Below are positions 22 to 13,999 of a DNA stretch of 64,000 nucleotides, piece after piece. Position 1 is the first letter of the stretch. The number at the start of each line of letters is the position of its first letter. Origin of the DNA: Hyphomonas sp. (lineage in GTDB: Bacteria; Pseudomonadota; Alphaproteobacteria; Caulobacterales; Hyphomonadaceae). The stretch lies in the NCBI RefSeq assembly GCF_018402285.1, contig NZ_JAGYJH010000004.1, forward strand, positions 1 through 64,000, in the 5' to 3' direction. The notes beneath the pieces are model-generated. The model did no database searches. It saw only the letters and a list, made by a program, of their open reading frames with translations, and was not told the origin of the DNA. A program made the position numbers and the translations under genes.

Positions 22-939
22 ATGACGACTATGCGGGTGGTGACAAAAACAGCTCGGATCTGCGGTGTTGGCGCGTCGATGGCGTTTCTGTTCCTTGCCC
101 CTGCCGGATCCCCTCAGGTGAAGGATGATCGCCATGATGCCTATGTGCGCGCGCACATCTCCTGGGCGCTTTACCATGAGACCGGGCATGCCATTCAGGA
201 TTTCACGGCCGACCGGTTCGTGATGACGGCGCAGGAGCGGGAAGACCACGCCGACAAGATTGCGGCCTTCCTGATGCTGCCCAAGCGCGGCAAGGTTGAG
301 GAATTTCAGTTCTATTATGATGCGGCCATCGATCTTTACATGGATACCGACCCGCCCGATCCCAACCATGTCTACGCGCCCAGCCGCGTGCGGGCAGAGC
401 GGATGCTCTGCATGCTGTACGGCGCTTTTCCCGACAGCCCCTGGACGGGCGACGCCCAGGAACTTAAAAACCGCAGCGATCAGGCGTGCATCGACGAGTA
501 TGCGGCCTTTCGAGAAGAGACAGTCGAGCTTCTGGGCTTTGCCCGGGACGTCACGTCGATAGACGAGCCCCAGTTCATTGATCCCCGGCTGATGGCGGCC
601 GAGCCGCGGCATCAGCAGGCGTATGACTATCTGGAGACGTCCGACATTCTTCTCGACCTTGCGATCGACGTGGAAGAATGGTTGCCGGGGCTGCAGGTCT
701 CCGAAAAGAAATTCCAGATCGTTGCTCAGGAATGCCCGGGTTATGACGGGTTCCGGTATTCCTGGGACCAGTCTGCCGTGGTCGCCTGTTACAGCGCCGT
801 TCAGCGATGCATGAACCGGCCCGGTCATCTGATTGCGATGGTCGATGCGCCCGATGAGGAGACATCTGACGGCGAAGAGGACGCCGCGTTTGACGAGGAC
901 GAAACCGGCTTTGACGAGGAAGAATTTTTCGAAGACTGA
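22..939 (+). CDS. Secreted DUF4344-like putative metallopeptidase
   Basis: A 305-residue protein with an N-terminal hydrophobic segment (about residues 15-30) that looks like a signal peptide, so it is probably exported. Residues 52-56 read HETGH, an HExxH zinc-metallopeptidase signature, followed by EREDHADKIAAF (about 72-83), which resembles the second conserved block of the DUF4344 family. The C-terminal 30 residues or so are very acidic. The substrate is unknown. The next gene downstream also encodes an exported acidic protein, so the two may belong together. The start could be the ATG at 22 or the one at 31; neither has a strong Shine-Dalgarno. The family call is from motif resemblance only. 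Confidence 0.6.
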   Translation: MTTMRVVTKTARICGVGASMAFLFLAPAGSPQVKDDRHDAYVRAHISWALYHETGHAIQDFTADRFVMTAQEREDHADKIAAFLMLPKRGKVEEFQFYYDAAIDLYMDTDPPDPNHVYAPSRVRAERMLCMLYGAFPDSPWTGDAQELKNRSDQACIDEYAAFREETVELLGFARDVTSIDEPQFIDPRLMAAEPRHQQAYDYLETSDILLDLAIDVEEWLPGLQVSEKKFQIVAQECPGYDGFRYSWDQSAVVACYSAVQRCMNRPGHLIAMVDAPDEETSDGEEDAAFDEDETGFDEEEFFED

Positions 940-1013: not shown

Positions 1014-1461
1014 ATGCGTACACGAACAACGAGACTTTCCCTGATGGCTGGCCTGGCGGCCTGCCTTGCCCTGTCGCCTGTGGGCACCGGCCTTGCCATG
1101 GCGGCGCAGGACAATGTGATGACAGCAGAGCCCCCCGCCGAAGAGGGCTTTGAAGAGGCTGAGTTTGCCGCAGATGACGACGCCGGCCTGACCGCCGGAT
1201 GGAGAGGAGGACGAGGACGGATCGCTCAGCGATGAAGACGGGGATGCCGGGGAAGGGCCTTCCTTCGCCGATGACGACGCCGGTCCGAGTGCTGACGACA
1301 GCTCCGGTGAGTGGGAGAGCGTCTCCGATGAGGAGGAGGCTCCGGACGCCGGGCAGACCGAGGCAGCTGGTGAAACATCCTCTGCAGGCGCTGAAGAAGG
1401 CGAGATTCCCCTGAGCGACGATGACGGGGGATCGCGCGCCAAAACCGGGCCGGGTCAGTAA
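1014..1461 (+). pseudogene. Frameshifted exported acidic protein
   Basis: The frame opened at 1014 has a clear signal peptide (charged start, hydrophobic core, AMA-type cleavage near residue 30) and then turns acidic (EEGFEEAEFAADDDAGLTA), but it leaves the acidic frame near 1192 and ends at 1235 with a basic GWRGGRGRIAQR tail. The acidic composition continues in another frame from 1192 to a TAA at 1459-1461 (starting PPDGEEDEDGSLSDEDG and including SFADDDAGPSADD). The near repeat of the ADDDAG motif on either side suggests one original reading frame broken by a single-base indel around 1185-1197. It could be a real mutation or an assembly error. No function is recognised; the protein would be low-complexity and highly charged. 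Confidence 0.6.
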
Positions 1462-1504: not shown

Positions 1505-4500
1505 TCAGGGCGGAAGGGTTGACAGGCAAACGGCCTGATCCGGGCGCGCCGTGGGCGGGTCGGGCGCAGACAGATGATATGGCAGGGTCCGGGACTGAAG
1601 GATCTCTTTCAGGCGCCGCTGCGATGGCGGGGCCCCGAACCCCTGGCACACGTCGCCCCGGACGTCGCCCCACTGGGCCCTGAGCAGCTGGTCTGCGGTG
1701 ATGTCGGCCTCGGAGAACTGTCGCATCGCCCCGCTCAGCAGGAGCGTGCATACGTCCCCGGCAAGCGTGTCCCAGTCCTGGGTCAGCCGCGACACATCCC
1801 AGATCCTGGCTGTCCCGTCGGCGCTGGCGGAAACGACCGATCGGCCATCGGGTGCGAATTCGGTGCTGTAAACCTTGTCCGTATGTCCCGCCAGCGAGGC
1901 AATCATCCGTCCGTCACGGGCGTCCCAGATATCCACTGTGCCGCCATTGCTGCCTGTCACGATGCGCCGCCCGTCGGGTGAGAAATGCGCGCTGTTCACC
2001 CAGTAAGTCCGACCACGGAGCATGGCGACCAGCTCACCGGTGGCGGCATCCCAGATCCGGGCCGAAGCATCATCACTGGCGGTAACGACCTGTCTGCTGT
2101 CAGCTGAGAATGCAGCGCCGTTGATCGGTTCTGCGTGGCCCTCGAGCACGCGAATTTGCTGTCCGGTTGCCGCGTCCCATATGCGGGCGGTTCCGTCGTG
2201 TCCGGCGGTCACGACGCGGGTTTGATCGGGTGAAAACTCTGCATCCCAGATAATCGTTTCGTGGCCGGTCATCACGATCGGGGGCGCCGAACCGTCGCGC
2301 TGCCATATCCGGGCTTCTCCGTCACTGCTTGCGGTCAGCACGCGCGCGCCGTCTCCGGAGAGGGCAACGGCATTGACTTCTCCTGTGTGTCCCACCAGCT
2401 GGCGGGGCGGCTCAAGACCGGTGCGATCGAAAATCCATGCAGTGCCGTCGCCGCTGCCCGACAGGACGAGGCTGCCATCGGCTGAGAGCGCGGCGTTGTA
2501 GGCGGGGCAGCCCTGGGTGAAGACGGCCGCGTCCATAGGCGCGCCGTTTGAGGCGTTCCAGAGCCGGGTTGTCCCGTCTTCGGAGGCGGTGAAAACAGTT
2601 GCGCCGTCTGCTGAAAAACCGGCCCGGTATACCGGACCCTCATGGATATCGAGGGTCAGGAGCAGCCTGCCGTCACCGCCTTCCCAGATGCGCGCGGTAT
2701 GATCGAGGCTTGCGGTGGCCACCCGCTGTCCGTCGGGCGAAAAGGCCGCCGTCCAGATCTGGTCTCCATGGCCTGCCAGTATCGCCACGGGTCTTCCGGT
2801 GCGGACATTCCAGAGCCGAGACGTGCCGTCATGGCTGGCCGTCACCAGGCGTTCACCGTCGGGTGAAAAGGCCAGTCCCTGAACATGCCGGCGATGACCT
2901 CTCAGCGAAAACAGAAGCCGGCCTGTGGCCGCCTCCCAGATCTGAACGGAGGTGTCGCGTCCGGCCGTTGCGATGAGGAGCCCGTCCGGGGAATAGGCGA
3001 CGGTCCAGAGCCCGTCTGGCCCTTCAAGGCGCATCGGGTCTGTGCCGGGCGCCAGCAGGTTCACAACCTGCGCGGTGTTGTCATTGCTGGCGGTCACGAT
3101 CTGCCTGCCGTCCGGAGACAGGGCGATCTCGAAGACCGCGTCTGAATGGCGTGCAAGAACCTCTGTAGCCGGTCCCTCCCGGGCCGCATCCCAGAGCAGG
3201 ACGGTGCCGTCATGGCTGGCCGTGACAACCCGTTGCCCGTCCGGTGTAAACAGGGCGCGGGCGAGCGCATCGGTGTGGCCGCGAAACACGATCAGTTCAG
3301 CCCCGGTTGCGGTATCCCAGAGGCGCGCCGTCCCGTCGCGCCCGGCAGTGACGACCCGCGCGCCGGACGCACCGGGTTCAAACTGCGCGAATGAAACGCG
3401 CCCGTCATGCCCGGTCAGGACGACGGGCGGACGGGCGCTGCCGGGGAACCAGATCCTTGCGGTGCCATCATTGCTTGTTGTGACGATGCGCGTGCCGTCC
3501 TGCGAGAAGGCGGCAGAATTGACTTCGTCCGCATGGCCTTCAAGCGCTTCGATCAGCAGGCCGGTCTCTGCGTCCCAGAGGCTCGCCGTTCTGTCCCGGC
3601 TGGCCGTCACAAGCCGGCGCCCGTCAGGGGAAAACACCGCCATCTTGACCCCGTCGCCATGAACAAGCGGGGGCAGGCTTTCACTCGTCGACTGCATGAT
3701 GCCGGCCAGCGCAGCGAGGTAGACGCGTTCATTGGCGGCTGAGAGCTGACGTCCGGCGAGGGCATAGCGAGCGGCGGCGGGCGTATTGCCATCATCCAGG
3801 GCCTGCCAGGCGCGTTCTGCAAAGAAGCGGTTGAGATTGGTGTTTGCCCGCAGACCGAGCGTCACGGCAGCCGTGGTGAGCCCGGCGAGCACGAGGCTGA
3901 GGACCCCGAGCGCGCCCAGGGCTGCGCGCGTGCGTCTCTCCGCCCGCCGGCGGTCGCGTTGCCAAAGTTCATCAAACCCGACACCGAGAATACCCGCGGC
4001 CAGGCGGGCGCAGGCCCGCGAGCGCCCGTCGGTGCGCAAGTCGAGCCCAAGCGGTTCGATCGGAAGGGCTGAAGGATCGCTCTCGTCCTGCCTTGCGCGC
4101 AGGGCGGCCGGAAAGCATTCCGAGCCGGGGTCACCGGAATTGGGGACCCCGTCCACAATCACCGCGAACACCGGCCGGTCATGCTGGGTTGCCCGGAACC
4201 GGGAGATTTCGGCGGCAACCCATTTCGATCTGGCAGATCTCGGAGAGCAGACAACGATGAGACATTCAGCCTGATCGAGCGCCTGACCGACAATCTCGCG
4301 GATATCGGCGGCCGCCGCCATATCGTCCTGATCCCTGAAGAACAGCCCGAGCCGCCGGTCAGGGGTCGTGCGGCCCGCAACGCCTGCCGGCACGCGGTAA
4401 GTCTCCAGCCAGCGCTGAAGTCTGCGAGCCCAGATCATGTCCTGCTGTGAGTAGCTTATGAAGCCGCGGTAGCGTCCGGAAGGGGGCGCGGGCGGCGCAT

Positions 4501-4540
4501 CGTCACCGTAAGCCGGGGCCAGGGCCTCATCGGGGGTCAT
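1505..4540 (-). CDS. TIR-transmembrane-WD40 repeat protein
   Basis: A 1011-residue protein in three parts. Residues about 24-135 form a TIR domain: it opens YRGFISYSQQD, and SPRSARSKWVAAEI (about 99-112) matches the conserved helix in which E111 would be the NADase catalytic glutamate. Residues about 208-231 are one transmembrane helix. From about 290 to 930 there are 15 WD40 repeats of the form H-x-V..FSPDG..VVTAS.DGTARIWD, enough for two beta-propellers. The TIR end should face the cytoplasm, but the orientation was not determined. The start overlaps the stop of the upstream membrane protein by 4 bp (ATGA), so the two are co-translated. TIR domains in bacteria are NAD-degrading or signalling effectors in immune systems, and WD40 propellers in such proteins usually sense or scaffold. 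An antiphage or stress-death role is an inference. Confidence 0.85.
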   Translation of the reverse strand: MTPDEALAPAYGDDAPPAPPSGRYRGFISYSQQDMIWARRLQRWLETYRVPAGVAGRTTPDRRLGLFFRDQDDMAAAADIREIVGQALDQAECLIVVCSPRSARSKWVAAEISRFRATQHDRPVFAVIVDGVPNSGDPGSECFPAALRARQDESDPSALPIEPLGLDLRTDGRSRACARLAAGILGVGFDELWQRDRRRAERRTRAALGALGVLSLVLAGLTTAAVTLGLRANTNLNRFFAERAWQALDDGNTPAAARYALAGRQLSAANERVYLAALAGIMQSTSESLPPLVHGDGVKMAVFSPDGRRLVTASRDRTASLWDAETGLLIEALEGHADEVNSAAFSQDGTRIVTTSNDGTARIWFPGSARPPVVLTGHDGRVSFAQFEPGASGARVVTAGRDGTARLWDTATGAELIVFRGHTDALARALFTPDGQRVVTASHDGTVLLWDAAREGPATEVLARHSDAVFEIALSPDGRQIVTASNDNTAQVVNLLAPGTDPMRLEGPDGLWTVAYSPDGLLIATAGRDTSVQIWEAATGRLLFSLRGHRRHVQGLAFSPDGERLVTASHDGTSRLWNVRTGRPVAILAGHGDQIWTAAFSPDGQRVATASLDHTARIWEGGDGRLLLTLDIHEGPVYRAGFSADGATVFTASEDGTTRLWNASNGAPMDAAVFTQGCPAYNAALSADGSLVLSGSGDGTAWIFDRTGLEPPRQLVGHTGEVNAVALSGDGARVLTASSDGEARIWQRDGSAPPIVMTGHETIIWDAEFSPDQTRVVTAGHDGTARIWDAATGQQIRVLEGHAEPINGAAFSADSRQVVTASDDASARIWDAATGELVAMLRGRTYWVNSAHFSPDGRRIVTGSNGGTVDIWDARDGRMIASLAGHTDKVYSTEFAPDGRSVVSASADGTARIWDVSRLTQDWDTLAGDVCTLLLSGAMRQFSEADITADQLLRAQWGDVRGDVCQGFGAPPSQRRLKEILQSRTLPYHLSAPDPPTARPDQAVCLSTLPP

Positions 4541-5712
4541 AATACAAACCTGGCGCGGTCGTTTGTGATGAGAAAGTCCAGCATTTCCTCGGTGGATGCG
4601 CGTTCCAGAAGCTGGGCTGCCAGTAGCGCCTCGCGCGGACCTTTTGCGGACTGGATTTCCTGCTGCGCATGGGCGACGGCGATGGCGTAGTTTTCCATCC
4701 GGTTGAGTTCCTGCTGCGGGTGCAGGCCCTCCTGCAGGGCGCGGGCGCCGACAGCGAGCAGGGCAAGCGCCATGGCCACCGAAACAAGGGCCATGTCGAC
4801 CGGGGTCGGAGGACGGGTGATCGCAAGGATGGTGGCGCCGAAATTTACAAGGAAGGCCAGGACCACAAGCGTGTAGGAGGCCCCCGTCAGGAGGCGAATC
4901 TGGCGCGCCGGATGAGACCAGAACCTTCCTGAATCTGAGAGCACATAATTTGTGTACTGAACCTGGCCCTGGAGTCTGATCGATGTGTAGGCGCTGCGAA
5001 CCTTTTCCAGGGCCTGTCCCTCGCCCTCCTGCGGCTTGCGTCTGGCCAGGTCAGCCCATGAAGGATCAATCCAGAAGGCGCGCATGTCACTGGCCGACAG
5101 GGCCCGGCCGCTTATCCGGCCGGCCGCATTGCGTTGGGTGTATTTGCTGAACTCGCTTGAAACCTGGCCCAGGAAGCTGCGCCGGAAGCGTTCATACGCG
5201 ACGCCGCGTTCCTGTTCATAGGCCTTGCGCCGCTCGGGATCTGCGCTGGCTGCGGCGATGTCGATCGCCGTGGCCAGCTGGTACTGGGCATGCCACTGGC
5301 GCAGACGTTCGCAGGAAAGCCGGCGATAGAGCCAGTCGCGTTTGCTGGCCCCGAAGCCCAGCCCCAGATTTCCGAAAACGATCGCAAGGACCCCGCTTGC
5401 CGCGCCGGCAAAAGCGAGCGCCCGGAGCACGCCGGGATCGGGCATGGCGTCCCCCAGGAAGATCCTGACGACCGGTTCCAGGGGAAATGTCAGCAGCGAC
5501 GCCAGGGCGAGCCCGATCGCTGCCAGTCCGAAGGCCCGGGAGCGCGCTTTGGCCTGTCGCGCCTCGCGGTCGAGCCTGACAAAATCTGCGCGCAGGGCGG
5601 GATGGTCGAGCGCGAAGAAAACATCCGGAAAACTGCGCGCAGCAAGGTCGCGGTCTTCCTGCGCAAGCAGGAGTTCGTCGTTGAACCGGAAGGTTTCCGA
5701 TGCGCGCTTCAC
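4537..5712 (-). CDS. SLATT-like four-helix membrane protein, partner of TIR-WD40
   Basis: A 391-residue protein with two pairs of membrane helices (about 60-78 and 96-118; 273-297 and 305-326). The first pair is followed by a helical segment WLYRRLSCERLRQWHAQY (127-144), like the conserved helix after the membrane pair of SLATT-type proteins. The C-terminus is helical and ends DFLITNDRARFVL. SLATT-type proteins are predicted pore-forming effectors that accompany nucleotide-signal and TIR systems. That assignment is my reading of topology and motif, not a search result. The start is GTG at 5712 after a G-rich stretch. The stop overlaps the TIR-WD40 start by 4 bp, so the pair forms one transcript, with this gene first. 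Confidence 0.65.
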   Translation of the reverse strand: MKRASETFRFNDELLLAQEDRDLAARSFPDVFFALDHPALRADFVRLDREARQAKARSRAFGLAAIGLALASLLTFPLEPVVRIFLGDAMPDPGVLRALAFAGAASGVLAIVFGNLGLGFGASKRDWLYRRLSCERLRQWHAQYQLATAIDIAAASADPERRKAYEQERGVAYERFRRSFLGQVSSEFSKYTQRNAAGRISGRALSASDMRAFWIDPSWADLARRKPQEGEGQALEKVRSAYTSIRLQGQVQYTNYVLSDSGRFWSHPARQIRLLTGASYTLVVLAFLVNFGATILAITRPPTPVDMALVSVAMALALLAVGARALQEGLHPQQELNRMENYAIAVAHAQQEIQSAKGPREALLAAQLLERASTEEMLDFLITNDRARFVL

Positions 5713-5908: not shown

Positions 5909-7354
5909 TCAGGCGCGGGACGCTTCAGGCGAGGTCTGGTTCACGAATAGATCGCGTCCGAAAGTGCGCCCGGACAGGAGAAAGAACAGACCCGCGAACG
6001 CAAACAGGCACGTTGCGGTCACGCAGGCCCATTGCACGCCATGGGCGCGTGCATTGCGGCATGCCTCGACAAGTTCGGCGGAGAGGGCAGGATCGGTCAG
6101 GCTGCAGGTTGCGGTGATCTGCCCGGCATAGCTGCTCGCGGCAATCCAGCCCGAGGTCATGGTGTCTGCCACGATGCCCAGTGCGGGCGGACCGACGCCA
6201 TACCCGATCAGGTTGACCACAAAGAGCAGGATCGCAATGGATGTGGCGCGCACGCGCAGGCTGACGACGGCCTGGGCGATATTGTACTGCGCGCCCAGGT
6301 AAAAGTATTGCAGCACGCTGGCCACCATCAGCAGGACGAGCATCCAGGTGCTGTCTGCGACCATGAACGCCGACGCATAGAGGGGCGCGCACACAAGGAA
6401 GGCCAGACCCGGCACCCAGGTTGCGGCGGTTGCCGAGGTCCTTGATGCCTGCTGGGTGAGGTATCCGCCAAGGAAGGCGCCGAGGGTGCCTGCAAGGCCA
6501 ACGGGCGCCATGAACATCAGCGCGGTTTCGCCCGGCGTAAAGCCATGCGTGAACACCACATGCTGTGGCTGCAGTCCGACAAGGGCATAGCCGGCAAACG
6601 CGGCGACCGTTGCCCCTGCGGTCATGACCCAGAAGGTGCGCTTTGAAAAGATTTCCGCCAGGGCGACGCTGAAGCTGACGCGTTCCACTTTCGGGGTTCC
6701 GGGAGGGTCGGAATAACCGCGGGGCGGCTCTTTGACGGTCAGCAGGAAAACAATACCCAGAAGGATCCCGGGCGCGCCGACGAAGATGAAGGCTTCGCGC
6801 CAGGTGAAGACATCCAGAATGAACCCGCCAAAGACCTGTGCCAGGACGCCGCCGGCGGTTACGCCCATGGCGTAGATGCCAAGCGCGGTGGGACGCGCCA
6901 GCGGGGCATAATAGTCGCTGATCATGGAGTTGGCCGGCGGGGTACATCCCGCCTCGCCGATTCCCACCAGCATCCGGGCCAGCAGGAGGGTCACGAACCC
7001 GACCGTGAAGCCGCACAGGACCGTTGCAGCAGACCAGAGAATGACGCAGATCCCGATGATCAGCTTACGGCTGACCTTTTCGGAAAGGTTTGCGATGGGA
7101 ATACCCAGAAGCGTATAGAAGAGGGCAAATCCGATGCCCGAGAGCAGGCCGAACTCGAATTGCGAAAGCTCGAATTCATTGATGATCGGAACGCTGACAA
7201 CACTGATCAGGATCCGGTCAACAAAATTGAATGTGTAAACGATGGTCAGCGATATCAGCACATAGGTCCGGTAGCCGAAACTGCCATAGCTTACCCCTGC
7301 CGGGTTGTTCCCCGCACCGGCGAAGTCCGATGCGCCCGCGGCTGTGTTACTCAT
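5909..7354 (-). CDS. Spinster-like MFS transporter
   Basis: A 481-residue inner-membrane carrier with about 12 hydrophobic helices. YTFNFVDRILISVV near residue 40 is the first-helix signature of spinster-type MFS proteins, which often carry lipids, organic acids or aromatic compounds. RMLVGIGEAGCTPPANSMI is the helix 4-5 region. A Shine-Dalgarno (GGAG, 9 nt upstream) supports the ATG at 7354. It lies 380 bp downstream of galT-galK on the same strand. No other sugar carrier is present in the galactoside cluster, so this could be the uptake system, but the long gap and the family make that uncertain. Confidence 0.8.
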   Translation of the reverse strand: MSNTAAGASDFAGAGNNPAGVSYGSFGYRTYVLISLTIVYTFNFVDRILISVVSVPIINEFELSQFEFGLLSGIGFALFYTLLGIPIANLSEKVSRKLIIGICVILWSAATVLCGFTVGFVTLLLARMLVGIGEAGCTPPANSMISDYYAPLARPTALGIYAMGVTAGGVLAQVFGGFILDVFTWREAFIFVGAPGILLGIVFLLTVKEPPRGYSDPPGTPKVERVSFSVALAEIFSKRTFWVMTAGATVAAFAGYALVGLQPQHVVFTHGFTPGETALMFMAPVGLAGTLGAFLGGYLTQQASRTSATAATWVPGLAFLVCAPLYASAFMVADSTWMLVLLMVASVLQYFYLGAQYNIAQAVVSLRVRATSIAILLFVVNLIGYGVGPPALGIVADTMTSGWIAASSYAGQITATCSLTDPALSAELVEACRNARAHGVQWACVTATCLFAFAGLFFLLSGRTFGRDLFVNQTSPEASRA

Positions 7355-7734
7355 GCGTGTCGCTCCGGAGGTCGTTGTCAGAAATAGGGTCAGCGGCGCT
7401 GCCCAGGCAGGGGCTGATCAGAAAGGATGCAGAACACGAATCTGTTGTCACGAAGGCCCCGGTTTCAGGCATCGTGACCGCGTTCCATGACAGCGCCCGG
7501 TCCGATGACGTCTTTTCAGGCCGATGTTCCGGGGCCTTTGGAAAAAGGATAATACAAAAATCGATAGACGGTAATAGGACAGGGCTATGGGGCCGGGCGC
7601 GTCCCGCTTTGCTGCCTGAAGGCGTGCGGCCTTTGGCAGGCTCAAGGGGATGCCCGAACATTGCCGGGTCCGGGACCGCGTCGACCTGAGCGCCATTTGC
7701 CGGTTGTCAGCGAGCCGGGATCGGCCCGGACCGT
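7355..7734. other. 380-bp gap between galK and the MFS gene
   Basis: No convincing gene. It holds an imperfect hairpin near 7612-7640 (CTGCC..GAAGGC with GCCTTTGGCAG) that could end the galT-galK transcript, and an AT-rich patch at 7546-7575 that may carry the MFS promoter (TATTAT on the minus strand). Neither is strong. Confidence 0.4.
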
Positions 7735-8745
7735 TCAGACGACGCGCACGGCGCCTGGATGACGTGCCTTTAGCCGGGACCACCAGGCGGAAGCCTGGCC
7801 GGTTTCGACAAGGCAGACGAAACAGCCGCCAAAGCCGGCGCCTGTAATGCGGGCGCCGTCGGCGCCCAGTTCGACCGCATCATCGACCATCGCGTCCAGG
7901 GCAGGGACCGACACGTCCATGTCGTCCCGCAGGGAGGCATGGCTGGCATTCATCAGCATTCCGAATGATGGCCGGCTTGCGGCCGCAAGCGCTGTGACGG
8001 CCTGCAGGGACCGGGCCCCTTCGGAGATGACATGACGCGCCCGTCTGGCCAGGACGGGGGGGAGCGATGGCGTGTCCTCCAGCTTTCCGTCACACAGATA
8101 GGGGACGCCGAGGCTACCGGCGGCCTCAAGGCATTCCTGCCGCCGCGCCCGGTAGCGTCCGTCAGACAGGGCGCGGGCGATGCCGGAATGGATGACAGCA
8201 AAAGTCCAGCCCGCCGGGACGGGCATTATCTGATAGCTGCAGTCGCGCGTGTCGAGCGCCAGGACGTTTCCTGGCCGTCCCACGGATACAGCCATCTGAT
8301 CCATGATCCCGCAGGGAACGCCCATGAAAATGTTTTCCACGTCCTGCGCTGCACGGGCGATCCCGGCCGGATCAATACCGGCCAGTTCGGCGCCCGCAGC
8401 CCTGAGTGTCGCCACGATCGTGGCCGCTGAAGAGGAAAGGCCCGCGCCGACAGGAATTGTGCTTTTCAGGATGACATCCTGTCCGCCGGTGATCCAGCCC
8501 ATGCGGCGGCCATACTGGAGGCCGCCGCGCACGTAGTCAGACCAGTGTCCTGCCGCAGGCACATCGATGCCAAAATCAGTGATGTCGGAGAACTGCTGAG
8601 ACTGCACGCGGTCATGGGTTTGTCCGTTCGCGCACATCTCCAGTTCGACCGACTGTGACAGAGCCATGGGCAACACGGTGCCGCCGTTGAAATCGATCCA
8701 TTCCCCGATCAGGTTCACACGCCCGGGTACCGTTGCACAGGTCAT
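7735..8745 (-). CDS. galK: Galactokinase (GHMP kinase)
   Basis: Phosphorylates galactose to galactose-1-phosphate, the first step of the Leloir pathway. At the N-terminus PGRVNLIGEWIDFNGG matches the galactokinase signature GRVNLIGEHTDYNGG except that the usual His-Thr is Trp-Ile. IPVGAGLSSSAA is the GHMP ATP-binding motif, CGIMDQMA is the sugar-binding block, and ITGAGFGGCFVCLV near the end is motif 3. At 336 residues it is shorter than the usual 380 or so, at both ends. The start overlaps the galT stop by 4 bp, so the two are coupled. Confidence 0.88.
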   Translation of the reverse strand: MTCATVPGRVNLIGEWIDFNGGTVLPMALSQSVELEMCANGQTHDRVQSQQFSDITDFGIDVPAAGHWSDYVRGGLQYGRRMGWITGGQDVILKSTIPVGAGLSSSAATIVATLRAAGAELAGIDPAGIARAAQDVENIFMGVPCGIMDQMAVSVGRPGNVLALDTRDCSYQIMPVPAGWTFAVIHSGIARALSDGRYRARRQECLEAAGSLGVPYLCDGKLEDTPSLPPVLARRARHVISEGARSLQAVTALAAASRPSFGMLMNASHASLRDDMDVSVPALDAMVDDAVELGADGARITGAGFGGCFVCLVETGQASAWWSRLKARHPGAVRVV

Positions 8746-9821
8746 AGGGTTCTGAGCCTTTCAGCGGCGATTTCGGGCAGGACATCAACCGTAAACACGC
8801 CCGTAAACTGTTCGACACTGGCGAGATATTTCAGCCGCCCTGGCGATCTGAGCATGGGACAGAACTGAACCGTGAACTGGAAGTTGGAACCTGCCTGAGG
8901 AGGGGCAGCCTGAAAACTCATCATGTAGGGCATAGGCTCCGCGAAGAGCGCATCCAGCCTGCGGGGAACTTCGCCCAGGAGCCGGGCCAGGGCATGTACG
9001 CCGCCGGTATCGAGTTCCCATGGCCCGGCGCAGGGCCGCCGGGCCATGATCCAGGTTTCGTAGGGAAACCGGGCGAACGGAGGACAGAACGCCGACAGGT
9101 CGCCGTCTGAGGTGACATCGAACTTCCCGTTCCAGGACGCGTGGTTGGCGATGAGGTCAAAACCTTCCCCGAAAGCGCGGACCGCCGAGGCCTGAGGTCC
9201 AGGAATGCCGGGGAAAGCGTAGATCTGGCCGTGCGGGTGGGCCAGTGTGACACCGACCCGTTCTCCGCGGTTCTCGAAGGGCAATACAAATGCAAAACCT
9301 GCCGCATGCAGGTATCTGTAGCGGTCAATCAGTGCTTCGATGAGGAGGACGCGCCGCTCCTGGCTCAGGGTGGCGAGACTCCCGGCTTGCTCTTTTGAGA
9401 AAACGACGACGTCGCAATGGCCGTTTGCGGGCCCGCAGGCCCAGTCTGTCACACTGGCGGGCACCGTGGCCGGCGCAAGGCTCGGAAACCTGTTTTCGAA
9501 GACAGCAAGTTCGAAATCTTCAAACGGGATTTCGGTCGCCGGCGCGCCGGGCCTGTGCGGCGCCAGCGGATCGGCCGCCGCCGACGGCAGAAAGGTGCGC
9601 GATTGCCTGTGGGGGGCATAGATCGCCCAGCTGTTCCTCAGGGGATCTCTTCTGAGCTCGCCTGGCGCGGTTTCCGGCCGCAACAGCTCATCAAGAACGG
9701 GCCCCTCATGCGGCGCATAGCCATAAAGGGAGAGATGCCGGCCGTCCGGTTTCCGGTGATCCCGGCGAAAGACCGGTCCGGTTTTTCCTTCGAGGCGGAT
9801 TATGGCGGAGTAATCTGACAT
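8742..9821 (-). CDS. galT: Galactose-1-phosphate uridylyltransferase
   Basis: Exchanges UMP between UDP-glucose and galactose-1-phosphate in the Leloir pathway. The 359-residue protein has the catalytic HPHGQ motif (in [14 protein letters not shown]) carrying the nucleophilic histidine, and FENRFPSL and [10 protein letters not shown] blocks typical of GalT. The open frame reaches back to 9986, but the first 55 residues would cross the divergent promoter and look non-coding. [15 protein letters not shown] from 9821 is the natural start. galE and galM are not in the window. Confidence 0.92.
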
Positions 9822-9854
9822 GTGAGCTGACAGGCTGCGCGAAAAGGTGAATTC

Positions 9855-9873
9855 AGGTCGGTCCGTCAGACCT
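9855..9873. promoter_or_regulatory. Inverted repeat in the galT/alpha-galactosidase divergent promoter
   Basis: AGGTC (9855-9859) and GACCT (9869-9873) flank 9 bp in the 115-bp region between the divergent galT and alpha-galactosidase starts. The position suits an operator, but the arms are short and no regulator gene is next to the cluster. Confidence 0.3.
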
Positions 9874-9936
9874 ACCGCGTCAGCCCAATTGATCATAGAA
9901 GCAATAAGCTGGCGAGTGGACAGGGGGGAACGGGAC

Positions 9937-11997
9937 ATGACCGACACGGCCATCATTTCTGACGCCGGTTTTGCCCTGCATGTCACCGGGGGAGCGGGCG
10001 CCGGCTTCAGCTTGACCTATTTCGGCCCGTCCTGCGCGGCGCACGGCACCGAGCCACTGCCGGTTCTTCCGGCGGGGCCGGACCGTCCACCCGGCCCGCG
10101 CCTCCTGGCGATGCGGGGCGATGGTTATGACGGGATCTCCCATATCGAAGCCGTGCGCCTTGAGGACGGCCGTGCGGCACACCTGATCCCGGTGTCGATC
10201 GAGCAGGTCTCGGGCACCGCCCTGCACCTTCATTCTGCCGACGAGGCGCAGGGGCTTGGTGTCACCCTGGAGATACGGCTCGGGCATGGGCTACTGCATA
10301 TGCGCACCCGGGTGCGCAATGGCGGACCGGCGCCGGTGCTGCTGATCCGCTGCGCTGCGCTGCTTCTGCCGCTGCCGGACTGGGCTGATGAGGTCATATC
10401 CGGCTACGGGGCCTGGGCCCGCGAAGGGCACACCGCGCGGCGCAGGCTGGATGCGGGTTTTTCCGGCAAGGCGAGCCGGCTCGGGCGTACCGGATTTGAC
10501 GGCCCGCCCGGAATTGTGATCTGTGCGGCCGGCACGACAGAGACCGTCGGCCGCGCCCTGGGCGCCCAGCTCGCCTGGAGTGGCAGTCATCGCATCCATG
10601 CCGAGCGGCTCCGGGACGGGGCTGTCGAACTTTGCGCCGAAGCGATCTATGAGCCAGGCGAGATCCTTATCGGGCCAGATGAAACCTTCGAAACGCCTGA
10701 AGCCCTTGTTGTCCTGTCGGAACAGGGCCTGGATGGTCTCAGAGACGTCTGGCACGCCCACGCACGCCGCCAGGTCCGGCCCGTTACCCGACCGGTCCAT
10801 TTCAACACATGGGAGGCGCGCTATTTCGGTTTCGACGAGCCAGGTCTCATCGAACTCGCAGGCCAGGCGGCCCGGCTTGGTGTCGAGCGCTTCGTCCTTG
10901 ACGACGGGTGGTTTGCCGGCCGCCGGGATGACCGGACATCGCTGGGCGACTGGACCCCTGACCCCGACCGTTTCCCGAACGGCCTTGCGCCCCTCATCCG
11001 CGCGGTAAACGACCTTGGCATGTCCTTCGGGCTCTGGGTTGAGCCGGAAATGGTGAGCCGCCAGAGCCACCTTTACCGGGCCCGTCCGGACTGGGTTCTG
11101 GCGTTCCCGGAAGAGGCTGCGCCGACGGGACGCAACCAGCTGGTACTGGATCTCTCCAATCCCGAGGTTGTGGATCATCTCTTCGGGACGCTGTCAGGCT
11201 TGCTGCGCCCTGGCGGCATTGATTATCTGAAATGGGATTGCAACCGGGAGCTCTATCCGGCAAGCCGGAACGGCAGATTGCGCGCGACGGCGCAGGTCAG
11301 AGGGCTGTATGATCTTCTCGACCGTCTGCAGGCAGCGTTTCCGGAACTGGAGATCGAAAGTTGCGCCAGCGGTGGGGGGCGGATCGATTTCGGTATCCTT
11401 CCGCGCGTCATGCGGTTCTGGGCGAGCGATGCGACGGACGCAGCAGACCGGATCCGGATCCAGGACAGTCTTTCACGATACATTCCTGCGGAAATGATCG
11501 GAAGCCATGTCGGACCCTCCCCAAATCCGATCACGGCAAGGGCATTTCCGATGGCCTTCAGAGGCCTTGTGTCAATGTTCGGGCATATGGGGGTCGAACT
11601 AGATCCGGCAAAACTCGATGCCGGAGACCATGCGACGCTTACCCAGGCAATTGCGCTTCACAAAAAGCTTCGCCCGAGCCTGCAGGCGGGGACCTATAAG
11701 GTGCTCGAAACCGGGGATGCCTCGCTGCACGTCTCCGGACTGTTCCGCGCCGGTTCCGGCGAATTTCTGCTCAGGGTTCTCAGGACGGCCATGTCCGTCT
11801 ACCCCCTGCAGGCGCGGATTACTGTGCCGGGCCTTCCGGGCGGTGCGCGCTACCGGGTACGGGAACTGGTGCTTGGCGAGGAGAGCGGACGCGAGCTCGG
11901 GATACTGACGGCCGAGACGCTTGCCTGGGCCGGTTTCCAGGGTGATCCGCGCAGGCCCGATCACGGACGGCTCTTCCATTTCCTTCCAATCCGGTGA
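9937..11997 (+). CDS. GH36 alpha-galactosidase
   Basis: Hydrolyses terminal alpha-galactosyl residues such as those of melibiose and raffinose. The 686-residue size and motifs fit glycoside hydrolase family 36: LDDGWFAGRRDD, DYLKWDCNRE with the nucleophile D434, CASGGGRIDFGIL, and RFWASDATDAADRIRIQ with the acid/base D498. No signal peptide is seen, so it is cytoplasmic and the galactoside must be imported. The open frame begins at 9847, but the ATG at 9937 has a G-rich Shine-Dalgarno (AGGGGGGAA) and gives a normal N-terminus. The beta-galactosidase gene follows after 7 bp. Confidence 0.9.
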   Translation: MTDTAIISDAGFALHVTGGAGAGFSLTYFGPSCAAHGTEPLPVLPAGPDRPPGPRLLAMRGDGYDGISHIEAVRLEDGRAAHLIPVSIEQVSGTALHLHSADEAQGLGVTLEIRLGHGLLHMRTRVRNGGPAPVLLIRCAALLLPLPDWADEVISGYGAWAREGHTARRRLDAGFSGKASRLGRTGFDGPPGIVICAAGTTETVGRALGAQLAWSGSHRIHAERLRDGAVELCAEAIYEPGEILIGPDETFETPEALVVLSEQGLDGLRDVWHAHARRQVRPVTRPVHFNTWEARYFGFDEPGLIELAGQAARLGVERFVLDDGWFAGRRDDRTSLGDWTPDPDRFPNGLAPLIRAVNDLGMSFGLWVEPEMVSRQSHLYRARPDWVLAFPEEAAPTGRNQLVLDLSNPEVVDHLFGTLSGLLRPGGIDYLKWDCNRELYPASRNGRLRATAQVRGLYDLLDRLQAAFPELEIESCASGGGRIDFGILPRVMRFWASDATDAADRIRIQDSLSRYIPAEMIGSHVGPSPNPITARAFPMAFRGLVSMFGHMGVELDPAKLDAGDHATLTQAIALHKKLRPSLQAGTYKVLETGDASLHVSGLFRAGSGEFLLRVLRTAMSVYPLQARITVPGLPGGARYRVRELVLGEESGRELGILTAETLAWAGFQGDPRRPDHGRLFHFLPIR

Positions 11998-12004
11998 GGC
12001 CTTC

Positions 12005-13999
12005 ATGAAGCTTGGCGTCTGCTACTATCCCGAACACTGGCCCGAGGAACACTGGCGTGAGGATGCCGCCATGATGCGTGCGCTCGGGGTTTCAATGGTC
12101 CGCATCGGCGAGTTCGCCTGGTCGCGGATCGAGCCTGCGCCGGGGCGGTTTGACTGGGGCTGGCTTGACCGGGCTGTCGCAGTGCTGGCCGAGGCGGGGC
12201 TGGGCATTGTGCTTTCCACCCCGACAGCCACGCCTCCGAAATGGCTTGTTGACCTCAGGCCTGACATCCTTCCTTTTGACCAACACGGCCATCCCCGGCG
12301 GTTTGGTTCGCGGCGGCATTACTGCTTCTCTTCCCGCGCTTACCGCGCCGAAAGCCGGCGCGTGACCGAGGCTGTCGCCCGCCGTTACGGCGAGCACCCC
12401 GCGGTGATCCTCTGGCAGACCGATAATGAATACGGCCATCATGGCAGTGATGAAAGTTTCTCTCCCGATGCTGTGTCTGCCTTTCGGGACTGGCTGGCGG
12501 CCCGGTACCGATCGGTTGCGGCCCTCAATGATGCCTGGGGAACGGTCTTCTGGTCTCAGGAGTATGCAAGCTTTGCCGAGGTTGATCCGCCTCAGGCCAC
12601 CGTTACAGAAGCCAATCCGTCACACAGGCTCGACTGGCGGCGCTTCTGTTCTGACCAGATGTGCGCATTCAACCGAGACCAGGTTGATATTCTCCGTAAG
12701 TTCAGCCCCGGGCGTCCGGTAACCCACAACTTCATCGGTGATTTCATCCGGCTCGATCACCGCAAGATGGGACGGGATCTGGACTATGCGAGCTGGGACA
12801 GCTACCCGATCGGACTTCTCAGCGAAGGGATCGCGTCAGAAGGCGAGAAGATCCGTAGGCTGAGGTATGGGGATCCTGACTTTGCGGCATTCAATCATGA
12901 TGTGTTCAGGGCCTGTGCCCCAAAATGGGGTGTCATGGAGCAGCAGCCAGGTCCTGTGAACTGGGCAAACTGCAACGCAGCGCCTGCGGCCGGTGTGGTC
13001 CGCCTGTGGACCTGGGAAGCCTTTGCCCATGGCGCAGGGTTTGTCAGTTACTTCAGATGGCGCCAGGTTCCTTTTGCTCAGGAGCAGATGCATGCAGCCC
13101 TCCTGGCGACGGATCGCACGCCGCAGCCGGTATGCGACGAAATCCGCAGGGTGGCAGAGGAAGTCGCTGCCTTTCCCGATTTTGAGAAAGTCCGATCCCG
13201 GATCGGCCTCCTGATGGATTACCCGTCTCTCTGGCAGCTGGAAATTCAGCCGCATGGCAACAAGGACGGGCCGCTGGGGCCGGCGCGTATCTGCTACAGG
13301 GCCTGCCGTATGCTCGGCCAGTCGGTAGACATGGTTTTCCCCGATGATGATTTTGACGGATATGACCTTATCCTTGTGCCTGCTGTAACCATTCTCACGG
13401 ACGCGCTAGTCGGCAAACTTGCGCGCAGCGGTGCAGTCATTCTCGCCACGGCGCTCTCAGGCGCGCGCGAGGAGACCGGTCGCACATCAGCACCTTTGCC
13501 GCCCGGGCCTCTGGCTGCGCTTCTGGGCACACGTGTCCTTTCTTTCGAAAGCCTTCCGAAGGACGTGCCCGTGGTGGTCAAGACGCCGGATCTCTCCCTT
13601 GCCGGGCACGTCTGGAGAGAGAGAATCGAAACTTCAGCCGAGCCCTGGGGCTGGTTTGAAGACGGCTCGCCCGCGCAGGTAAAGTCGGGGAACTTCCGCT
13701 ATCTTGCTTACTGGCCGGATGAAACATCATGGCAGATCATCCTGCAGCAATTGCTTGACGAGCGTGGGGTGCCTCACTGGCACACAGGACCTGACCTTCG
13801 TCTTGTGCATTCCGGAGAGCTGGTATTCGCGTTCAATTACGGACCGGACACAGAGGACCTTGGGGCGCGTGCAATCGGGCCTTCCGATCAGAAATGGCTC
13901 CTGGGCGGGCCCTGCCTTCCGCCTGCCGGGGTTGCGGCCTGGAAGGCAGAGCGACCGAGGAAGCAGGCGGACACGCCTGGTCCCGGCAGCCCCGGCTGA
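12005..13999 (+). CDS. GH42 beta-galactosidase
   Basis: Hydrolyses beta-galactosides to galactose. The 664-residue protein starts MKLGVCYYPEHWPEEHW, the classic GH42 N-terminus. WQTDNEYG holds the acid/base E142, and VMEQQPGPVNWA holds the nucleophile E312. The C-terminal part fits the trimerisation (class I glutamine amidotransferase-like) and beta domains. The ATG at 12005 is chosen over the upstream frame opening at 11921 because it begins the conserved motif. With the GH36 enzyme upstream and galT-galK divergent, the cluster converts alpha- and beta-galactosides to glucose-1-phosphate, apart from the missing epimerase. Confidence 0.92.
   Translation: MKLGVCYYPEHWPEEHWREDAAMMRALGVSMVRIGEFAWSRIEPAPGRFDWGWLDRAVAVLAEAGLGIVLSTPTATPPKWLVDLRPDILPFDQHGHPRRFGSRRHYCFSSRAYRAESRRVTEAVARRYGEHPAVILWQTDNEYGHHGSDESFSPDAVSAFRDWLAARYRSVAALNDAWGTVFWSQEYASFAEVDPPQATVTEANPSHRLDWRRFCSDQMCAFNRDQVDILRKFSPGRPVTHNFIGDFIRLDHRKMGRDLDYASWDSYPIGLLSEGIASEGEKIRRLRYGDPDFAAFNHDVFRACAPKWGVMEQQPGPVNWANCNAAPAAGVVRLWTWEAFAHGAGFVSYFRWRQVPFAQEQMHAALLATDRTPQPVCDEIRRVAEEVAAFPDFEKVRSRIGLLMDYPSLWQLEIQPHGNKDGPLGPARICYRACRMLGQSVDMVFPDDDFDGYDLILVPAVTILTDALVGKLARSGAVILATALSGAREETGRTSAPLPPGPLAALLGTRVLSFESLPKDVPVVVKTPDLSLAGHVWRERIETSAEPWGWFEDGSPAQVKSGNFRYLAYWPDETSWQIILQQLLDERGVPHWHTGPDLRLVHSGELVFAFNYGPDTEDLGARAIGPSDQKWLLGGPCLPPAGVAAWKAERPRKQADTPGPGSPG

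Follow-up and report, generated by a model that had tools for sequence, protein, structure and literature searches.

A TIR-WD40 protein overlapping a tandem SLATT-like protein: a candidate membrane signalling module in Hyphomonas

What do two overlapping genes for a TIR protein and a membrane protein do together at the start of a Hyphomonas contig? The stretch of DNA analysed here, which we call the window, covers the opening 64 kb of contig C4 (NZ_JAGYJH010000004.1) of a 3.04-Mb genome. Two minus-strand genes in the window overlap by ATGA at 4540-4537, as read from the sequence and as an earlier note on this DNA had reported. One encodes a SLATT-like membrane protein, the other a protein with a TIR domain, a transmembrane (TM) helix and WD40 repeats. 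The earlier note took the pair for a candidate new immune or conflict module. We observe the genes, their domains, their family relationships, the conservation of their neighbourhood and that of a catalytic Glu directly. We infer the topology, the NAD chemistry, the opening of a pore, a role in defence and the trigger. Put together, they would make up a TIR-SLATT type of signalling module at the membrane, in which an envelope signal leads to TIR NAD chemistry and this to a SLATT pore. We give this reading about an even chance.

The TIR-TM-WD40 protein has the parts that the earlier note read from it: a TIR domain with an intact Glu111, one membrane helix and about 15 WD40 repeats. Pfam TIR_2 matches at C4:4127-4462 with 47.6 bits against a cut-off of 28 bits, and the catalytic Glu is present in addition to this profile match. 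In the motif SKWVAAE, Glu111 aligns with the Glu of SKWCLME in the TIR domain of flax L6 (E 0.024), which we take to be the catalytic Glu of that protein. The PADLOC models SAVED_TIR and ThsB match the TIR domain weakly, and a match to HEAT-ARM_XIII falls on the WD40 stretch. Pfam PF00400 matches 15 stretches, and the repeat anchors give 15 units of 42-43 residues. Near-identical WD40 repeats, which would be a sign of rapid diversification, were looked for and not seen: the units have a mean pairwise identity of 38% and a maximum of 56%.

The catalytic Glu and the topology were compared in 34 hand-chosen TIR proteins from the loci described below. The Glu column holds Glu in 33 of them; the alignment of the protein from locus L086 is gapped at this column and unsure. 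By hydropathy, a single helix follows the TIR domain in 29 (two with an extra weak segment), and several helices are present in the proteins of L086, L092 and L155. Lys and Arg are in excess before the helix in 28 of the 29 single-helix proteins, with one tie. Because of this excess the TIR domain is predicted to lie inside and the WD40 or FGE domain outside. The window protein would then have a cytoplasmic TIR and a periplasmic WD40 domain, a layout like that of a Toll receptor. Since the WD40 domain is predicted to be periplasmic, the trigger of the receptor is probably extracytoplasmic.

Is the membrane protein a SLATT protein? Hydropathy finds the four helices of the earlier note, and the TM pairs (residues 60-113 and 280-323) show the two-TM hairpin followed by a long conserved helix that is a feature of the SLATT superfamily. 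We searched 299 genomes of the order and found matches in 36. Of these, 25 passed at E<=1e-5, the window among them; the remaining 11 matches were short and weak and were set aside, and at two of them (L063, L064) no relative was seen. Scanning a named genome collection yielded 32 loci, of which 14 were taken to be on contigs of the first set by their equal length, and hence 43 distinct SLATT loci overall. The 25-row family alignment has two TM hairpins with a conserved stretch after each. W127, L128, R131, E135 and R138 are invariant after the first TM pair, R338 and Y342 after the second. The two halves of the family are alike (hhalign 58%, E 1e-4).

The SLATT likeness claimed in the earlier note is clearer for the family than for the window protein by itself. 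Taken singly, that protein reaches NCBIfam SLATT_1 with E=0.046 and 13.7 bits (cut-off 41; residues 47-157), and a Pfam scan gave it no SLATT match. Of the 25 family members, 20 reach SLATT_1 at E<=1, the best with 1.5e-9. In profile comparison the family matches a second tandem family with 99.8% and an 18-row set of SLOG-SLATT fusions with 86% (hhalign; E 5e-6, 253 columns, both hairpins covered); six single-sequence controls stay at or below 0.3%. Single proteins of the DUF4231 type or of canonical SLATT type score 1-5% against the family (L126 53%), and the halves at most 11%. As these canonical scores are low, it is the SLOG-SLATT fusions, the fold pattern and the matches to NCBIfam that carry the case for SLATT. 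We place the 391-residue protein in a divergent tandem SLATT-like family, on SLATT matches that are weak from the single sequence and clearer from the family. Both of its termini are predicted to lie inside. Proteins of 620-680 residues that SLATT_1 matches were at first suspected to be false positives; by eye, most of those listed are SLOG-SLATT fusions, whereas L114 proved to be an ABC transporter.

SLATT superfamily genes are also marked by genomic linkage to nucleotide enzymes such as SLOG and TIR, and this family has such linkage. A TIR gene is the immediate neighbour at 26 of the 43 SLATT loci (18 of 25 in whole genomes, eight of the 18 further loci; a subset was checked with Pfam). TIR_2 has 1-20 matches per genome, 8.2 on average. 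By chance 0.12 adjacent TIR genes are expected in the 25 genomes, where 18 were seen, and the maximum in 200,000 simulations was three. The chance model assumes about 0.95 genes per kb, and its outcome should not be read as if the events were independent, because the loci are related to one another. Most TIR neighbours (19) are divergent genes of the TIR-FGE type, with FGE in the same open reading frame (ORF) in 14, in a neighbouring ORF in two and a contig end in three. Two other divergent neighbours are a short TIR (L053) and a TIR-TPR (L092). The neighbours in L045 (with WD40) and L086 are convergent. Co-directional neighbours are the TIR-WD40 genes of the window and L054 and a ThsB-like TIR in L103.

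Some SLATT loci hold further genes. An Ion_trans ion channel gene stands beside SLATT genes of two different families (L052 4797-5456 and L155 10270-11031 by Pfam; L049 6340-7128 by eye). Two membrane-type proteins accompany a SLATT gene without TIR at L082 6300-7983 and L087 9117-10684 (Methylocystaceae and Hyphomicrobiaceae contigs, respectively; by eye), and one of the two at L082 is DUF6709. L097 has a TIR-like stretch in a nearby ORF.

How constant is the pairing? In a SLATT tree of 41 of the 43 loci (L093 and L098 were left out), the window protein falls in a clade of 12 with support 100/99. All 11 other members of the clade have a divergent TIR-FGE gene. Hence SLATT and TIR partners swap among relatives. 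The C-terminal domains of the TIR neighbours are exchangeable. Among the loci examined, this SLATT subfamily occurs together with the close TIR-TM-WD40 type only in the window. The co-occurrence that the earlier note wanted surveyed is thus found for TIR and SLATT in general but not for this exact pairing of subfamilies.

Around other SLATT-type matches we looked at 18 regions: ten that we assigned to the second family, three of about 18 SLOG-SLATT fusions and five others. Nine of these regions have a TIR gene as direct neighbour. It is of the TIR-FGE type in L143 and L145, with degenerate forms of this type in L153 and L154 (TIR_2 21 bits in L154); L144 has TIR-TPR and L155 TIR-WD40. In L157 and L158 a ThsB-like TIR adjoins Pfam SLATT proteins, and L158 has a second TIR that falls short of the cut-off. 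In L156, TIR-WD40 overlaps a 430-residue SLATT-like gene by 4 bp. Two genes separate the TIR from the SLATT-type gene in L146 and L148. No close TIR was seen at L147, L149, L150, L151, L159 and L160, and no SLATT was recognised in L152. The order of the window, SLATT before TIR-WD40, recurs in L054, in L156 with the SLATT-like gene, and with SLOG-SLATT fusions in L198, L201 and L202.

The module is larger than the two genes of the earlier note, which overlooked a putative, secreted-looking DUF4344 metallopeptidase. We searched the 299 genomes with the first 280 residues of the TIR-WD40 protein and examined the regions around 40 matches. Among the 13 top-ranking homologues that carry WD40 (L161-L173, with the window counted in), 12 have a convergent DUF4344 gene with HExxH (three re-checked by Pfam). 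DUF4344 occurs in 18 of the 299 genomes at 19 places, and 12 of these are TIR-WD40 loci; the 2.3-3.6-kb stretches around the other seven gave no TIR or WD40 match. In the window the contig starts just before the DUF4344 gene. Six of the 17 best homologues have a tandem SLATT directly next to the TIR gene: the window, L198, L201, L202, L204 (where its frame is split) and L205. In L206 it is two genes away. L198, L201 and L202 have the complete order of the window, SLATT, TIR-WD40 and convergent DUF4344, with a different SLATT family. Weak SLOG-SLATT profile matches of neighbours of 596-611 residues in L208, L209, L218 and L219 were excluded from this count. Thus the metallopeptidase accompanies the TIR-WD40 gene more constantly than SLATT does. 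A short TIR-TM protein without WD40 occurs beside a DUF3472-type protein in L204 4233-5117 (Pfam) and similarly in L203 and L205; in L204 and L205 a SLOG-SLATT gene is also beside it.

Between DUF4344 and TIR-WD40, four same-genus loci (L192, L193, L194 and L196) have intact-looking ORFs for small, acidic, secreted-looking proteins with a common C-terminal tail, PG.T.ES.PGGST.PGT.PD. The stretch at the same place in the window is frame-broken. Four same-genus genomes carry a tandem SLATT of 333-335 residues that is unlinked to their TIR-WD40 and DUF4344 module; in G170 only 0.5 kb of contig remains upstream of that module. Because all four genomes show synteny at the SLATT locus, they may represent one clade and one event. 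The flanks of the TIR-WD40 module in five same-genus genomes share no sequence (blastn E 1e-10; 0.5-8 kb per side, with none left of the window's module). The coordinates of all features are collected in Table 1.

Table 1. Features of the module in the window, with strand and basis of assignment.
Feature	Position	Strand	Basis
Divergent tandem SLATT-like membrane protein, 391 residues, GTG start, four predicted TM helices	4537..5712	-	gene call, family comparison, hydropathy
TM1, residues 60-78 of SLATT-like protein	5479..5535	-	hydropathy
TM2, residues 95-113, then conserved K..WL..RL..ER.RQ stretch	5374..5430	-	hydropathy, alignment
Second TM hairpin, residues 280-298 and 305-323	4744..4875	-	hydropathy; likeness of halves
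TIR-TM-WD40 protein, 1011 residues, ATG start, ATGA overlap with SLATT-like gene	1505..4540	-	gene call, Pfam
TIR domain, about residues 24-165; Glu111 codon 4208-4210	4046..4471	-	Pfam, alignment
Single TM helix, residues 208-226, TIR side K/R-rich	3863..3919	-	hydropathy
15 WD40 repeats, residues 288-921, predicted extracytoplasmic	1778..3679	-	Pfam, repeat anchors; side by charge rule
Remnant of a small acidic protein for secretion, spread over two frames: signal-like start in the first, acidic rest and stop in the second	1014..1461	+	frame reading
Putative metallopeptidase (DUF4344) with HETGH motif; N-terminus signal-like by eye; gene convergent with that for TIR-WD40	22..939	+	PF14247 44.2 bits

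The genes upstream of the pair look like an ordinary cluster for galactose use (window 5909-13999), with a major facilitator superfamily (MFS) transporter and galactokinase-, uridylyltransferase- and alpha-/beta-galactosidase-like genes (by eye; the MFS alone by Pfam). The transporter had one chance-level match in the defence scan (E 0.0077). Elsewhere in the same genome, three long TIR proteins (823, 1574 and 1210 residues) with WD40 similarity lie within 13 kb (L066, G000:C3:520001-540000), and the window's SLATT has no match in that stretch. Contig C5 holds two more TIR proteins of 959 and 1115 residues (L068, L069). In a Parvularculaceae locus (L046 1-1977, on the same contig as L084), the N-terminal part of a Cas9 (PADLOC Cas9, 199 bits) stands beside a SLATT-TIR pair.

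How could such a module work? The periplasmic WD40 propellers may sense a trigger on the envelope side, which could be contact with a phage, a toxin on its way in or a self-protein that has been cleaved. With one helix spanning the membrane, the cytoplasmic TIR domains would cluster and cleave NAD+. An ADP-ribose-type signal or direct contact could then open the four-helix SLATT protein as a pore, and the open pore would lead to growth arrest or cell death. The DUF4344 metallopeptidase would act on the outer side as sensor, activator or trigger. A more detailed version would make the module a bacterial counterpart of the Toll pathway. Here the secreted DUF4344 protein would cleave the small acidic protein, and the WD40 domain would read the product or the peptidase; TIR NAD chemistry would open the tandem SLATT pore. 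WD40 and FGE (lectin-like fold) ectodomains would be exchanged while TIR and SLATT are kept. In all this detail we consider it decidedly improbable.

Several observations weigh against a TIR-SLATT signalling module. In L154 the catalytic Glu is replaced by Gln, and no clear helix is found in the TIR proteins of L044 and L156, the latter being closest to the window in gene order. The predicted layout has hydropathy and charge as its sole basis. For SLATT, none of the 299 genomes has a SLATT_1 match above the 41-bit cut-off; Pfam DUF4231 is reached weakly by 11 of the 25 members (best 0.0012) and SLATT_5 by five (best 6.4e-4), whereas DUF2207_C is reached by 15 (best 5.8e-5), exceeding any Pfam SLATT model. 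A pair of bona fide Pfam SLATT_1 proteins scores only 0.6% against the family (hhalign). No SLATT structure was found, and a PDB profile search with the family gave two chance-level hits. An immediately adjacent TIR is missing at 17 of the 43 SLATT loci. Among these, a TIR is one gene further in L050 and about 5 kb off in L099, L093 has an nSTAND1 protein, L096 a SLOG-like gene beside SLATT (by eye, no Pfam match), and L058 and L098 are at contig ends. Conversely, eight of the 12 loci that combine TIR-WD40 with DUF4344 show no SLATT in the examined region, although L194 has only 0.5 kb of contig upstream; a SLATT in cis is therefore not obligatory. We found no copies of the module in plasmids, phages or viral contigs, and no published experiment on a member in the literature searched. 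Defence-gene likeness was absent from all eight further window proteins scanned, up to 18.4 kb. A defence island, for which the earlier note proposed to look, is thus not visible among these proteins. In favour of the module stands the SLATT-TIR pair beside cas9.

Some of these points speak for other explanations. If the TIR protein can act without a visible SLATT, then the TIR domain itself may be the killing effector, through NAD+ depletion, with SLATT as an upstream membrane sensor or co-receptor that clusters TIR and forms no pore. None of the residues that are invariant in the SLATT family falls within a predicted helix, and pore formation by SLATT is itself a prediction in the available parts of PMC9503650 and PMC12483538. 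SLATT-type proteins are, however, paired with varied signal or sensor domains (TIR, SLOG, nSTAND1), the usual pattern of a shared effector, and we find a killing TIR with a sensing SLATT unlikely. The quiet surroundings of the window pair, and the many partner loci amid ordinary-looking genes (by eye), suit envelope-stress or developmental signalling instead of immunity. Periplasmic WD40 and metallopeptidase would then monitor envelope proteins, while TIR and SLATT tune membrane permeability or growth; the secreted look of the DUF4344 protein and the ion channels at L052 and L155 agree with this. Yet the distribution is patchy and at unrelated sites, partners swap, one locus lies beside cas9, and conflict systems include TIR, SLATT and STAND-type domains among their parts (PMC7159879, available part), which leaves a role in envelope stress or development unlikely.

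The window pair might also consist of two independent genes with no shared function that came together by chance or only recently. This subfamily combination was found only in the window; this SLATT is missing beside the nearest TIR-WD40 homologues, and the nearest SLATT proteins go with TIR-FGE. A mere join is nevertheless very improbable, given that the two genes overlap by ATGA, that other SLATT families show this gene order in L054, L156, L198, L201 and L202, and that TIR adjacency is far above chance.

If the TIR-SLATT signalling module is real, it matters in two ways. An outward-looking TIR receptor with swappable ectodomains and an adjacent membrane effector would mean that Toll-like outside-in immune sensing exists in bacteria too; most known bacterial TIR systems are cytosolic. 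It would also offer a tractable test case of two to four genes for SLATT proteins, for which the literature, as far as it was available, gives predictions of activity only.

How does the module compare with known systems? In the literature searched, with partial coverage, we recognised no description of a TIR-TM-WD40, SLATT and DUF4344 module. The TIR-SLATT pair, which the earlier note took for a candidate new module, is not a new principle. As the available text of Iyer et al. 2022 (PMC9503650) reports, TIR genes adjoin genes for 2TM SLATT proteins in Firmicutes phages, sometimes with a zincin-like metallopeptidase, and SLATT is predicted there to be a membrane effector regulated by ADP-ribose. 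The window's TIR gene likewise lies in a conserved SLATT neighbourhood. It differs from the systems in that text by a tandem, divergent, four-helix SLATT, a bacterial contig instead of phages, a TIR receptor with TM helix and WD40, and a DUF4344 peptidase. In the available part of PMC7159879, GAP1-N1 systems also combine a SLATT gene with TIR or other nucleotide enzymes. No GTPase core gene was seen among the scanned window proteins, and no search was aimed at those genes. SLATT further occurs with some DRT9 systems (PMC12483538, available part). In Thoeris with a TM-macro ThsA (PMC11204291, available part), a TIR-made, NAD-derived signal acts on a membrane effector, as it may here. Unlike in Thoeris, the TIR protein here is itself membrane-anchored and has a propeller domain. 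The pair of a ThsB TIR and a ThsA effector (SIR2-SLOG or TM-macro) is not seen: the neighbours (SLATT-like, DUF4344, MFS transporter) have no SIR2, SLOG or macro match.

The SLOG-SLATT-SLATT fusions, which neighbour TIR-FGE and TIR-WD40 genes, share the tandem SLATT with the window and in three loci its gene order; they differ in the SLOG-like domain fused to SLATT (by eye) and form a separate subfamily. What is new in the window is the outward-facing receptor layout, which is predicted, and the conserved, secreted-looking peptidase. Animal Toll-like receptors have an outer repeat-type sensor of leucine-rich repeats, one helix and an inner TIR domain. The topology predicted here would be the same, with WD40 or FGE in place of leucine-rich repeats. 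The likeness is one of analogy, and shared descent comes into the comparison for the TIR domain at most.

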